DNA from: Kastovskya adunca ATA6-11-RM4
GTDB lineage: Bacteria > Cyanobacteriota > Cyanobacteriia > Cyanobacteriales > Coleofasciculaceae
Direction of reading: 5' to 3'
Length of the DNA stretch: 64,000 bases
Assembly (NCBI GenBank): GCA_019359445.1
Contig: JAHHHJ010000011.1
Coordinates: 124,001 to 188,000, forward strand
The notes under the pieces were generated by a model, which saw only the letters and a program-made list of their open reading frames with translations, did not search any database and was not told where the DNA came from. Every line of letters starts with the position of its first letter. The first letter of the stretch is position 1. Below, one piece after another: positions 56,005-60,647 of this stretch. The position numbers and the translations under genes are program-made.

Positions 56005-58020
56005 GTGGAAAAGGGAACATTGATCGAATTTCGCTCTTCAGGAGAGCGCCGTTTAGCTACCGCAGACCGTCCAGAGGGAAAAAAACACTGGATTGTGGTA
56101 GATGAACGGGGACAGTCCCATACACTGCATCCCCGTCAAGTGACCTATGCAGTGACGGGGAGTAACTATAAACCATCAGAAATCTCGGATTTTCTTCAGG
56201 AAGTTGAACCGTATTTAGACCCTTCTAGTTTGGAAGTGGCGTGGGAAATCTTGGTAGAAGAAGGGAGAGCGGTGAGTTGTGCTGATATGGCGCAGCTCTT
56301 GTTTTCCGATCAAAGCCCACCTTTGTGCTACGCCGCTCACTGCTTGCTGTCGGAGGATAAGGTCTACTTCAAGCAAAAGGGAGAGAGTTACGAAACTCGT
56401 CCGGCTTCCCAGGTCGCAGACATTAAGCATCAGCAATCGGTAGAAGAATTACGGCTGCGGGAGCAAGAGGAATTCTTCGCCCGTCTACACCAAAGACTTA
56501 ATGAGGGATCGGTGGAATGGCAAGACAGCGATCGCTTGCGACTAGAATCCTTAGAACGCTTTGTACTTCATCCAGAAAATCCCCCTCGTCAAGCTATAGA
56601 AATTTTGGCAACGTTGGAACGTACGCAAACCGCCCAAGCGAGCTTTGAGCTGCTGCTAGAGTTGGGTTTGTGGAGTCCTCACGAAAATCTATTTCTGCGG
56701 CGCAGTCAAATCCCTATACATTTTCGTCGTGAGGTGCTTGAAGTGGCTCAGCAACACCTGGAGTCTCCACCAAGCGACCCAGACCCTAACCGTCTAGATT
56801 TGACCCACCTGAAGGTCTACACCATCGACGATGAAAGCACTCAAGAAATTGACGATGGCGTAAGTATCGAAACCTTGGCAGACGGGCGACAGCGCTTGTG
56901 GATACACATTGCTGACCCAACTCGCTTGATCCTTCCAGGAGATGCCTTAGACTTAGAAGCCCGCCGTCGCAGCACCACCTTATACCTGCCGACGGGAATG
57001 ATTCCCATGTTCCCACCAGAACTGGCAACTGGGCCAATGAGCTTGGTACAAGGAAAGGTGTGCTATGCCCTCAGTTTCGGCATCATTTTAGATGAAAAGG
57101 GAGCGGTTCAGGAGTACAGCATCCACGCCAGCCTGATTAAGCCGACCTACCGTCTCACCTATGAAGATGTTGATGAGATGTTGCAGCTAGGGGTGCAGGC
57201 AGAACCAGAAATTACCGAAATCGCTCAGTGGGCACAACGACGGCAAGAGTGGCGACGAGAGCAAGGTGCCATTAGTATTCATATGCCGGAGTCGGTGATC
57301 AAAGTTAAACAAGATGACGAAATCATCATTGATCTTTTAGACGACTCCGTTTCCCGGCAGTTAGTCGCGGAAATGATGATTCTTACGGGGGAAGTAGCAG
57401 GACACTACGGGCAAACTCATCAAATTCCTTTGCCCTTTCGCGGTCAGCCTCAGCCAGAACTCCCCTCCGACGAAGAACTGTTACAACTACCAGCTGGGCC
57501 CGTCCGCTTCTGCGCCCTGCGGCGGTGTATGCCTCGCAGTGAAATGAGCATCACTCCCATCCGACATGCAGGTTTAGCCCTAGAAACCTATACTCAGGTG
57601 ACTTCTCCAATTCGTCGTTATACCGACTTGTTGAGTCACTTTCAAATCAAAGCCCATCTCCGGGGTGAGTCACTACCCTTTAGCGCCGAACAGCTACAAG
57701 AAGTGATGCTAGGGGTCACTACAACGGCTCAGGAAGCCGTCTTGGTGGAACGTCAGACCAATCGTTACTGGGGCTTAGAGTATCTCCGGCGTCACTCCGA
57801 TCAAGCTTGGCAGGTGCTGGTGTTGCGCTGGCTCAGAGAACATGAAAATTTGGGATTGATTCTGGTCGAAGATTTGGGGCTAGAGTTGGCAATGCGCTTT
57901 AAACGCTCGGTTTCGTTGGGCGATCTTTTAAAAGTTAAAGTTGCTCACGCTGACCCCCGTCAAGATGTGATTCAGTTCCAAGAGTTAGTGGAACAAGAAA
58001 TGCAGTCCGCCATCACCTGA
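56005..58020 (+). CDS. RNase II/RNase R-type 3'-5' exoribonuclease
   Basis: The RNB catalytic domain (about residues 255-560) has the key acidic cluster TIDDESTQEIDDGVSIET, then IHIADPTRLILPGDALD and the RRSTTLYLPTGMIPMFP strand. N-terminal OB-like and C-terminal segments flank it, but the typical S1 tail of RNase R appears short, so the product (671 residues) fits the RNase II-like cyanobacterial form. It degrades mRNA from the 3' end. It starts at a GTG (56005) 154 bases after rpsR. Confidence 0.9.
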   Translation: MEKGTLIEFRSSGERRLATADRPEGKKHWIVVDERGQSHTLHPRQVTYAVTGSNYKPSEISDFLQEVEPYLDPSSLEVAWEILVEEGRAVSCADMAQLLFSDQSPPLCYAAHCLLSEDKVYFKQKGESYETRPASQVADIKHQQSVEELRLREQEEFFARLHQRLNEGSVEWQDSDRLRLESLERFVLHPENPPRQAIEILATLERTQTAQASFELLLELGLWSPHENLFLRRSQIPIHFRREVLEVAQQHLESPPSDPDPNRLDLTHLKVYTIDDESTQEIDDGVSIETLADGRQRLWIHIADPTRLILPGDALDLEARRRSTTLYLPTGMIPMFPPELATGPMSLVQGKVCYALSFGIILDEKGAVQEYSIHASLIKPTYRLTYEDVDEMLQLGVQAEPEITEIAQWAQRRQEWRREQGAISIHMPESVIKVKQDDEIIIDLLDDSVSRQLVAEMMILTGEVAGHYGQTHQIPLPFRGQPQPELPSDEELLQLPAGPVRFCALRRCMPRSEMSITPIRHAGLALETYTQVTSPIRRYTDLLSHFQIKAHLRGESLPFSAEQLQEVMLGVTTTAQEAVLVERQTNRYWGLEYLRRHSDQAWQVLVLRWLREHENLGLILVEDLGLELAMRFKRSVSLGDLLKVKVAHADPRQDVIQFQELVEQEMQSAIT

Positions 58021-58150
58021 GAGTAGTTAGTAGTCTGAAGTTGCTTTGTCTGTCGGGGATTAAATCTCTGCTTATAGAAAAGTTCTCTTAAAGTGGCTAA
58101 CGCCATACATAAGTAGAGAAAATTACTAACCCACCAGAAGTAGTGTATAT

Positions 58151-58250
58151 TTGTACCTATAAGAAGGGGAGTAGTTAACGGTATTTTGCCGACTGTCTGA
58201 ATCGACATACTGGCGCGTAATCGCCCGGTTCAGTCAACAAAGGTACTCAA
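58151..58250 (+). ncRNA. yybP-ykoY (manganese) riboswitch aptamer
   Basis: The motif's conserved GGGGAGTAG is at 58166-58174, and the second internal-loop phrase CGACATAC is at 58203-58210. The closing stem pairs GTACCT (58153-58158) with AGGTAC (58241-58246), extended by TTG/CAA. An inner stem pairs GACTG (58191-58195) with CAGTC (58231-58235), and GGCG/CGCC closes a small hairpin at 58212-58225. These are the expected stems and loops of the Mn2+-binding family that often precedes manganese exporter genes. The UPF0016 gene follows 147 bases later. Confidence 0.8.
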
Positions 58251-58296
58251 AAACGTGAGAATAGCGCGTTTTAAATAAATTAAACCTTTGGTAACG

Positions 58297-58394
58297 AGAC
58301 CTTCACTAAGTTCACAATCTGCAAAAGTGAGCTTGGTGAGGTCTATTTGATTCTCCTCAAGTTCGCTCTTATGCACCAATAAGGGACGCTTGAG
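58297..58394 (+). promoter_or_regulatory. Expression platform of the manganese riboswitch
   Basis: A long hairpin, AGACCTTCACTAAGTTCAC (58297-58315) with GTGAGCTTGGTGAGGTCT (58327-58344), comes first. Then CTCAAG (58356-58361) pairs with CTTGAG (58389-58394) around TTAT/ATAA, placing the GAGAAG ribosome binding region of the downstream ATG (58398) at the stem. No T run follows either hairpin, so control of translation start is more likely than termination. Confidence 0.55.
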
Positions 58395-58397
58395 AAG

Positions 58398-59015
58398 ATG
58401 GTAACGAATTTCACAGCAAGCTTTTCACTAATTTTAATTTCCGAGCTAGGCGACAAAACATTCTTTACCGCCGCTGTTTTAGCAATGCGCCATTCCAGAG
58501 CTTTGGTATTTGCTGGAGCTTTTGGTGCGTTGGCGTTAATGACTGCACTATCAGCTTCAATTGCACAAATATTTACCTTACTGCCCCGTGCCGTCATTCA
58601 TTATGGAATGATTGCGTTGCTGGTTTATTTTGGATTGCAATTATTAAGGCAAGCTCGGAAGATACCTGCCAATGCGGCAAAGCACGAACAGGAAGAAGCC
58701 CAAGCGCTTGTCGAGCGTGCGGAGAAGGAGAAACGCGGTCGGATGACGAGTTTGGCGGTGTTGATGGAAGCGTTCAGTTTAACCTTTCTAGCAGAATGGG
58801 GCGATCGCACGCAATTAGCCACGATGACCTTAGCGGCGGATAACTCGGTTTGGAGTGTGATTGCTGGCGGAACCTTAGGTCATGGTGTTTGTACCGCGAT
58901 CGCGGTTTTGGGGGGGCGGTGGCTTGCTTCTTACATTTCCGAGCGAGCGATCGCCTATGTTGGTGGTACCTTATTCCTCATCTTTGCCGCGATTACTTTA
59001 ATTGAAGGAATGTAG
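58398..59015 (+). CDS. UPF0016/GDT1-family manganese exporter
   Basis: 205 residues with six membrane segments and the two diagnostic motifs ELGDKTFF (near residue 16) and EWGDRTQL (near residue 135), each E-x-G-D-(K/R)-T. A cytoplasmic loop of basic/acidic residues (KHEQEEAQALVERAEKEKR) joins the two halves. The cyanobacterial GDT1/TMEM165 relative is known to export manganese; this gene is preceded by a manganese riboswitch, which supports the same job. Excess manganese would switch it on. The ATG at 58398 lies right after the sequestering hairpin. Confidence 0.9.
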   Translation: MVTNFTASFSLILISELGDKTFFTAAVLAMRHSRALVFAGAFGALALMTALSASIAQIFTLLPRAVIHYGMIALLVYFGLQLLRQARKIPANAAKHEQEEAQALVERAEKEKRGRMTSLAVLMEAFSLTFLAEWGDRTQLATMTLAADNSVWSVIAGGTLGHGVCTAIAVLGGRWLASYISERAIAYVGGTLFLIFAAITLIEGM

Positions 59016-59294
59016 ATAAATAAGAGTTTTTTCCAAACATTCTTAAAACTACGCCTTTCTTTTATTGCTTCTCTTAAAAGGAGGTTACGGGACTCGAATC
59101 ATCACTGAACCATCTTGAATTAGTTCAATAACTCGCCTTTTCTCCGTCTATGTCGTGGAAGTCAGGGGGAATTTCGCTGATTTTGAAAGACGAATGCGAA
59201 AATTCAGCGTATCCTACTAACAACGGGCGTTTGAGTAGCGGCAACGCTCTCGAAAGATAGGGGTGCATTTTTCCAAGAACTGCTGGAGGGAAAA

Positions 59295-60647
59295 ATGAGC
59301 AGAGTAGATTTTGATAGAAAACGCCTTGGTACAGAAGAACTCAGACGAGCAACCCCACTAACCAAAAACTGGCAACAAGCTGATCTGAGGCGAGCCGATT
59401 ACAAAGGAGAAAATTTTCGAGCAGCGAACCTAAAACAGGCGAACCTTACAGAAGCTAATTTCAGTTACACCGACTTAATCGAAGCCGATCTAACCGGGGC
59501 AAATCTCAGTCGCTGTAACCTCAGCGGAGCGTGCCTGAATTTGGCACAAATGGGTGCAGCCAACTTGCAACACGCTGATTTAACTTGGTCTAATCTAGTA
59601 GGCGTTGACTTGAAAGCCGCAGATTTGAGAGGGGCAAATCTCAAAAAAGCCAACGTCTTAGGGAGCAATTTGGCAAGTGCTAACCTCACGGGAGCTAATC
59701 TTAGTGAAGCTGACTTGAGTGAAGCTGATTTGCATGAGGCGAATCTGCAAAAAGCTGTTTATACAAGTGGTACCCGCTTTTCTATTGGCTTTGACCCTAA
59801 ACAAAGTGGGGCTTATCTAATTGCACCTCATGTGATCCTGACGGGTGTCAATTTGAGCGAAGCAACGCTGTGTGGAGCCGACTTGCGGCTGGCAGATTTA
59901 AGACTGGCAAATCTCAGAAACTGTAATTTGATCGGTGCGAACTTAGACAGTGCGAACCTGGCATACGCCAATCTCGCCGGAGCTGACCTCAGTAAAGCGA
60001 AACTCCGAGGAGCCACCTTTGAAAACGCCGTCTACACCCAGCAAACCCGATTTCCTGAAGAATTCGACCCCAAACAGGTAGGGGCACATCTGATTGCTCC
60101 CGGCATCTCACTTCCTGGGGTAAATTTGAGTCGGATTGATTTAAGTGGCAGCGATCTGCGGGAGATTAATTTAAGATTTGCTAACTTACAGGGAGCCGAT
60201 CTAGGAGGGGTAGATTTGAATCGCGCCAGCTTAAGACAAGCAAATCTGGAAGATGCCAATCTCACTGGAGCGGATTTACGTGGGGTGGATTTGACGAAAG
60301 CCTGTTTAAATCGGGTGAATTTGAGTGAGGCAGACCTAAGAAGGGTAGACCTAACGCGGGCAGATTTAACGGGAGCTAATTTAAGTGGGGCAGATTTGCG
60401 CGGAGTGGATTTAACCAGAGCCTGCTTGAAACAAGTGAATTTGAGCGGGGCAGATTTGAGAGGGGTGGATTTGACGAGAGCCAATCTCAGGGTAGCAAAC
60501 TTGAGTGGAGCGGATTTGAGTGAGGTAAACCTAAAGCACACGAATTTGATGGGGGTGGATTTGACAGGGGCAGATCTGACGGGAACGATTTTGCCGCCAG
60601 AAACTCATGTGCAGGAGTTGAGGCCGGAGCAGTCGTATCGGCTGTAA
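59295..60647 (+). CDS. Long pentapeptide-repeat protein (450 residues)
   Basis: About 75 pentapeptide units, mostly A(D/N)L.., build a long beta helix. Two similar interruptions, AVYTSGTRFSIGFDPKQSG at about 153 and AVYTQQTRFPEEFDPKQVG at about 247, each followed by AYLIAPHVILTGVNL-like sequence, break the helix and divide it into three stretches. The last third shows a recent expansion at DNA level (repeated GGGGCAGATTTG-type words). The N-terminus (MSRVDFDRKRLGTEELRR) lacks the header of the other pentapeptide genes. No enzyme domain; function unknown. Confidence 0.9.
   Translation: MSRVDFDRKRLGTEELRRATPLTKNWQQADLRRADYKGENFRAANLKQANLTEANFSYTDLIEADLTGANLSRCNLSGACLNLAQMGAANLQHADLTWSNLVGVDLKAADLRGANLKKANVLGSNLASANLTGANLSEADLSEADLHEANLQKAVYTSGTRFSIGFDPKQSGAYLIAPHVILTGVNLSEATLCGADLRLADLRLANLRNCNLIGANLDSANLAYANLAGADLSKAKLRGATFENAVYTQQTRFPEEFDPKQVGAHLIAPGISLPGVNLSRIDLSGSDLREINLRFANLQGADLGGVDLNRASLRQANLEDANLTGADLRGVDLTKACLNRVNLSEADLRRVDLTRADLTGANLSGADLRGVDLTRACLKQVNLSGADLRGVDLTRANLRVANLSGADLSEVNLKHTNLMGVDLTGADLTGTILPPETHVQELRPEQSYRL

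Follow-up and report, generated by a model that had tools for sequence, protein, structure and literature searches.

What controls the gene at 58398–59015 of the window, the whole 64,000-nt stretch of Kastovskya adunca DNA that was analysed, is the question raised by the 377-nt intergenic gap that separates it from an RNase II-type gene (56005–58020). A sequence-only reading had placed a yybP-ykoY manganese riboswitch ahead of a GDT1/UPF0016 exporter here, and the motifs that it named lie inside the gap.

58398 to 59015, plus strand: gene of a GDT1/UPF0016 cation (Mn) transporter, 205 aa, with the motifs ELGDKT and EWGDRT in the translation.

The gene assignment holds. The full-length product matches PF01169 in two stretches (E 1.8e-45, 153.6 bits) and carries the E-x-G-D-[KR]-[ST] motif, of which one or two copies are required in the GDT1/UPF0016 family. 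It is predicted to be a Mn exporter by analogy with its Synechocystis homolog Mnx, which is described as exporting Mn (PMC7020235). The next gene (59295–60647) encodes a 450-aa pentapeptide-repeat protein; RfrA, a protein with five-residue repeats, has been linked to Mn uptake in Synechocystis, as reported in PMC7020235.

The proposed RNA class is also supported. The yybP-ykoY RNAs are recognized by the L1 motif GGGGAGUA and an L3 motif ACAUAC with an invariant adenosine, which are found at 58166–58174 and 58205–58210, by helices P1–P4 around a four-way junction, which are present at the level of pairing (sequence and fold, with P1 covarying), and by a Mn homeostasis gene downstream, here GDT1. 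According to a review, a yybP-ykoY element precedes 328 of 333 bacterial UPF0016 genes (PMC7380456). The elements of the leader are as follows.

58146 to 58151, plus strand: -10-like box TATATT, placing the likely transcription start near 58158.
58163 to 58167, plus strand: 5' strand of aptamer helix P1, GAAGG, covarying with 58300–58304 (CCTTC).
58166 to 58174, plus strand: L1 motif GGGGAGTAG, from the sequence and the RF00080 alignment.
58179 to 58191, plus strand: aptamer helix P2, CGG-tattttg-CCG, from the sequence and the fold.
58195 to 58235, plus strand: aptamer helix P3 with L3, conserved register CTGAA 58197–58201 with TTCAG 58229–58233.
58202 to 58210, plus strand: L3 motif TCGACATAC, from the sequence and the RF00080 alignment.
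58238 to 58290, plus strand: helix P4, CAAAGGT (58238–58244) with ACCTTTG (58284–58290), with an inner hairpin, from the sequence and the fold.
58295 to 58304, plus strand: 3' half of L1 and 3' strand of P1 (CGAGACCTTC), the true end of the aptamer.

The two conserved motifs of the sequence-only reading are thus in place, the second as CGACATAC at 58203–58210. By analogy, A58207 would be the Mn-contacting adenosine that corresponds to A48 of the Xanthomonas oryzae riboswitch in the numbering of PMC6754395.

For comparison, 430 loci with a gene for a relative were available, and 80 of them, from named genomes, were retained. A total of 116 leaders were taken, of which five were removed as identical over 150 nt; of the remaining 111, a pattern search kept 104, and 49 of these are non-redundant at 88% identity. 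The 104 leaders include the window and some genomes that are present in two collections. L1, L3 and the first platform strand, A, occur in the expected order in these 104 of the 111 distinct upstream regions. The L1 motif is AGGGGAGTA in 94 leaders and AAGGGAGTA in 10, under a search pattern that permitted one change.

The comparison relocates the closing helix. Joint variation is seen between the letters that precede GGGAGTA and those that follow GAGAC: GAAGG faces CCTTC in 91 of the 104 leaders, GAAAG faces CTTTC in 10 and GAAGG faces CTTTC in three, with no mismatch, so that the variable pair is G-C, A-U or G-U, respectively, and never A-C. Exchange of strands between genomes gives a weaker result for this helix than for the others described below, as the observed energy is equalled or bettered in eight of 2000 permutations. 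On this covariation the closing helix is GAAGG/CCTTC (58163–58167/58300–58304), with the true end of the aptamer at 58304, and the last strand of the aptamer therefore doubles as the first arm of the long hairpin downstream. The stem that had been proposed to close the aptamer, GTACCT/AGGTAC (58153–58158/58241–58246), does pair in letters; however, its 5' arm lies mostly upstream of the probable transcription start, its 3' arm overlaps P4, and a 6-bp stem of this type is found in only 12 of the 49 leaders (window included), even when slid by about 14 nt. The aptamer end that followed from it is therefore unsupported too. The inner stem GACTG/CAGTC is, by eye, off the register of P3 shared by the relatives. 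At the place of P4, 40 of the 49 leaders have a stem of 6 bp or more under liberal search settings, which also admit some wrong registers. The 29 nt before P1 contain a match of at least five letters out of six to TATAAT in 44 of the 49 leaders, as opposed to 365 of 980 shuffles, and the distance from this -10-like box to P1 is usually 11–12 nt. No promoter was returned by a sigma-70 scan that used both hexamers.

The Rfam scores require some care. The sequence-only reading had made the class assignment depend on an RF00080 match above threshold. No Rfam family matches the window at gathering level, while a permissive scan of 58021–58450 gives RF00080 as its best match (25.3 bits, E 3.7e-5), below the curator's cut-off of 45 bits. 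In the same permissive scan, 12 of 14 relatives match RF00080 at 21.8–35 bits and none reaches the cut-off, so that all 15 cyanobacterial leaders scored fall below it. The leader of E. coli mntP, which is published as a yybP-ykoY Mn riboswitch (PMC11647493), also falls below, with 41.6 bits (Rfam release 15; positions 1962–2058 of locus L187). As a published member fails at the same threshold, the cut-off does not exclude membership and does not settle the matter; annotation by gathering score would miss E. coli mntP and the leader of the window alike. In the printed alignments the RF00080 model stops at P4 and does not include the closing P1.

The ligand of the aptamer is most likely Mn2+. 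In 15 of the 104 leaders L3 reads ACATGC (nine), ACACAC (five) or ACACGC (one) instead of ACATAC (e.g. L043, L064 and L103), and possible shifts in metal preference or kinetics could accompany these variants. Such variability speaks for another main ligand or an altered ion preference of the aptamer. This alternative seems very improbable, as the adenosine that would contact Mn is kept in all 104 leaders (the search pattern required it), the window itself has ACATAC, the published aptamers likewise vary at the letters after the adenosine (PMC6754395), and the Synechocystis homolog Mnx exports Mn according to PMC7020235.

Between the aptamer and the gene lies an expression platform of four conserved strands.

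58297 to 58315, plus strand: strand A, which pairs with B or closes P1 with its first part.
58327 to 58344, plus strand: strand B, which pairs with A (closed) or with C (open).
58352 to 58367, plus strand: strand C, which pairs with B (open; 15 bp, -19.1 kcal/mol in the window) or with D (closed).
58381 to 58394, plus strand: strand D, the start region, with a weak SD-like AAGGG (58381–58385) and GCTTGAG (58388–58394).

The A:B and C:D pairings are the two hairpins of the sequence-only reading. The long one (58297–58344) is confirmed by sequence and fold, and the 3' arm of the other, GCTTGAG, ends just before the ATG at 58398. Both are real, and what had been missed by treating them as separate is that the first shares a strand with the aptamer and that B:C links the two. 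The region 58140–58420 folds at -88.7 kcal/mol compared with -64.6 (sd 4.8) for shuffled sequences (z -5.0, none of 200 as good). The long hairpin had also been considered as a dispersed repeat, which was rejected: a search of the same genome with 58285–58400 returned the query itself and seven matches of 15–30 bp.

Two alignments were used to examine the pairings: A1, with 49 leaders aligned by MAFFT and unfitted to structure, and A3, with 62 loci, for which the closed structure alone guided the fit; neither was fitted to B:C. RNAalifold predicts A:B and C:D on A1 without help. In A1 the closed structure has 95.7% of its cells paired, nine pairs changed on both sides and 18 double-changed cells against 4.7 in shuffles (0/500), and B:C has 92.5% paired, five double-changed pairs (14 of 500 shuffles have as many) and 10 double-changed cells against 2.6 (0/500). 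In A3 the closed structure has 12 such pairs and 39 cells against 7.8, and B:C eight pairs and 26 cells against 13.1 (1/500 for pairs, 0/500 for cells); the kinship of the sequences makes all these shuffle counts generous. Sliding B:C by -1 column in A1 gives 13 double-changed cells, more than the 10 of the true register, with only 43.5% of cells paired instead of 92.5%; in A3, sliding the partners by 1–3 columns leaves 28–53% paired, a control in which the closed structure is favoured, since it was drawn from the consensus of the same sequences.

The B:C pairing amounts to 12–18 bp in all 49 non-redundant leaders. It could still be a by-product of two fixed hairpins, produced by the GAGCTTG-like letters in both B and D together with the need of C to pair with D, in which case the platform would work otherwise, for example with a closed start that is opened by ribosomes or a protein. 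The letters common to B and D are indeed present, and in the 12 loci from other orders the energy of B:C with its own C (-20.16 kcal/mol) shows no gain over that with C partners from the same order (-20.21), whereas the own partner is better for A:B (-24.59 vs -20.11) and C:D (-12.07 vs -7.89). On the other hand, B:C extends past the shared letters. In three of 61 loci a position outside C:D has changed jointly in A, B and C (from A-T-A to G-C-G), and L084 and L103 keep 18 bp of B:C despite changed letters. When strands are exchanged between genomes, A:B, B:C and C:D become weaker in every one of 2000 permutations of the 49 leaders and of 5000 of the 61 loci, while the control combinations A:C, A:D and B:D are not weakened. 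Fixed hairpins with an incidental B:C are therefore considered quite unlikely, even though the large stability advantage of the closed state in the full-length fold speaks for them.

The leader is rather likely to act on the translation of GDT1 as a yybP-ykoY-type Mn2+ riboswitch with a relay of the four strands. Without Mn2+, strand B would displace the 5-bp P1 and pair with the whole of A, and the free C would pair with D once D is made, closing the start region. With Mn2+, the docked aptamer would hold P1 on the first part of A and leave the 3' end of B free as a toehold. C would enter there and occupy the full length of B ahead of the synthesis of D, and both D and the start codon would remain open. 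The ON state with Mn2+ follows from this order of the relay and would suit an exporter. Among the points against the relay are the RF00080 score below the gathering level, the lack of the platform in six of the 111 leaders and in 28 of 87 GDT1 carriers of the phylum sample, and the weak SD of the window; SD-like AGGAG, GGAG, GAGG or AGGA is present in the last 30 nt of the platform match in 59 of 61 loci, the window and L184 being without it.

Folding of the full-length leader, which prefers A:B plus C:D, gives no support to an equilibrium switch. Forcing P1 alone makes the start region (-16 to -7) more open in no more than eight of the 49 leaders, the window not among them, because B remains paired with those letters of A that lie outside P1. 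When P1 and B:C are forced together, the start region opens in 39 leaders, is unchanged in 10 and is less open in none. The open state lies above the closed one by a median of 13.5 kcal/mol (range 4.1–22.4; 14.6 in the window). With the closed state so much better at full length, the decision would be a kinetic one. Transcripts that end after C and before D behave differently: unforced, B is on A in 48 of 49 (the exception is L093), and with P1 forced, B is on C in 47 of 49 (the exceptions are L050 and L054) at a median cost of 6.1 kcal/mol. The transcript of the window shows the same change of partner at a cost of 11.5 kcal/mol. This anatomy fits a switch that is set during transcription. A more specific form of the proposal, advanced only tentatively and somewhat doubtful as a whole, is that the riboswitch is decided once, co-transcriptionally, by toehold strand exchange, and that its state is then locked although equilibrium favours the closed form; C could use the toehold on B only up to the synthesis of D.

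Control at the start of translation, as the sequence-only reading had suggested, appears the likelier mode. In L. lactis, where the top pairs of the P1.1 switch helix are G5 and G6 with C95 and C96, P1.1 and a terminator are mutually exclusive (PMC11087558). P1 of the window probably occupies the place of P1.1, and it excludes A:B in exactly the same way, which would fit a transcriptional riboswitch with A:B as the intrinsic terminator, P1 as the antiterminator and C:D as secondary. The 8 nt after A:B contain two to six T across 61 loci (five in the window, with the tail TCTATTTGAT), including five or six T in 27 loci, and a run of four T occurs in 18. A run of five T is nevertheless present in only three of the 61, the hairpin of the window is not followed by a U tract of the intrinsic-terminator type, and a scan of 58021–59300 detected no terminator-like site on the plus strand. 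The lack of a T tail, which had been the argument for translational control, is only soft as evidence, given the T-rich tails. A terminator would also leave C, D and the B:C coupling unexplained. Transcriptional control as the main mode is therefore unlikely, although some genomes may in addition use A:B to stop transcription.

The GDT1 protein has a match in each of 20 family genomes, seven of them with E < 1e-50, and in 81 of 195 order genomes at E 1e-30. A covariance model of the closed platform, R1, matches the window with 72.8 bits (E 7.0e-14) and, at E 0.001, finds 60 places in 59 genomes of a phylum-wide sample of 386 cyanobacterial genomes, under strict filters that may miss diverged copies. 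Fourteen further weak matches of R1 were discarded under a stricter cut-off. A full-length GDT1 (E 1e-30) is present in 87 of the same 386 genomes, which include all 59 with R1. All 60 places are directly upstream of a GDT1 match (-3 to +96 nt; 9 nt or less in 58). In the other 28 carriers, neither an L1–L3 pair in the roughly 450 nt upstream nor an R1 match was found, and R1 gave no match on 18 loci of short GDT1 relatives. Judged by these patterns, aptamer and platform appear to travel together. Among the 111 leaders, L016, which is masked at the start codon and was missed by the pattern, matches R1, and six orthologue leaders are without the platform (L042, L047, L055, L087, L136 and L140; L087 and L140 are from Planktothrix), with L140 scoring 11.3 bits against R1, the level of chance. 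Full-length GDT1 genes with neither the platform nor a recognizable aptamer pair upstream (the 28 loci L188–L215 and L042, L055, L087 and L140) suggest that the gene is regulated in another way in some lineages.

One of the short relatives without a platform is from the genome of the window itself (contig C24, L030). Another genome (G327) has two full-length GDT1 genes with a platform at each, L178 and L179. In L178 the start codon itself lies, by eye, within strand D (GCATGAC facing GTCATGC of C), which would be a more direct closure of the start. In L179, L1 contains GGGTAGTAG; the platform match of this copy lies 96 nt away from that to GDT1 and is truncated, for which reason L179 was left out of the 61-locus tests.

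The leader can be compared with known Mn2+ riboswitches. With those of L. lactis and X. oryzae it shares the L1 and L3 motifs, the invariant L3 adenosine, the four-helix layout and a weak P1 as the switch helix, in competition with a hairpin further downstream, as described in PMC11087558 and PMC6754395. The L. lactis riboswitch acts on transcription through its terminator, whereas in the window the competing hairpin would feed the choice between B:C and C:D over the start codon, and U tracts are few. With E. coli mntP it shares a long leader (229 nt in E. coli) and, as a proposal for the window, a ribosome site that is closed without Mn and open with Mn (PMC11647493). The P1 letters GG/CC are at the same place in both, and the unforced fold of the E. 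coli leader also buries the 3' strand of P1 in a long hairpin. The E. coli leader, the one stretch from outside the phylum to which R1 was applied, differs in that it does not match R1 and that its single P1-forced fold, of this one sequence only, shows no such relay. To our knowledge, cyanobacteria are without Rho. In the E. coli control Rho takes part (PMC11647493), which is a further difference.

In cyanobacteria ManS/ManR is named as the only established Mn-dependent regulator (PMC7020235, from 2019, and PMC11649195, from 2024). Mn-dependent gene control would be common to this system and the proposed riboswitch, whereas sensing by ManS/ManR is protein-based and its established target is the mntCAB importer, according to the same two papers. 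A review also places an Anabaena UPF0016 gene under ManS/ManR (PMC7380456).

Neither the aptamer class nor its association with UPF0016 genes is new; the new part is the relay. The suggestion that the platform is less described than the aptamer stands: a literature search that reached few of the subscription papers found no described cyanobacterial platform. With the relay, the question of kinetic or equilibrium control of a translational riboswitch becomes open to direct test. A conserved riboswitch of the exporter would add RNA control for a metal that is central to oxygenic photosynthesis. If the proposal is true, many cyanobacteria would have an RNA-based Mn control of the exporter, in a group for which ManS/ManR is so far the only system named.
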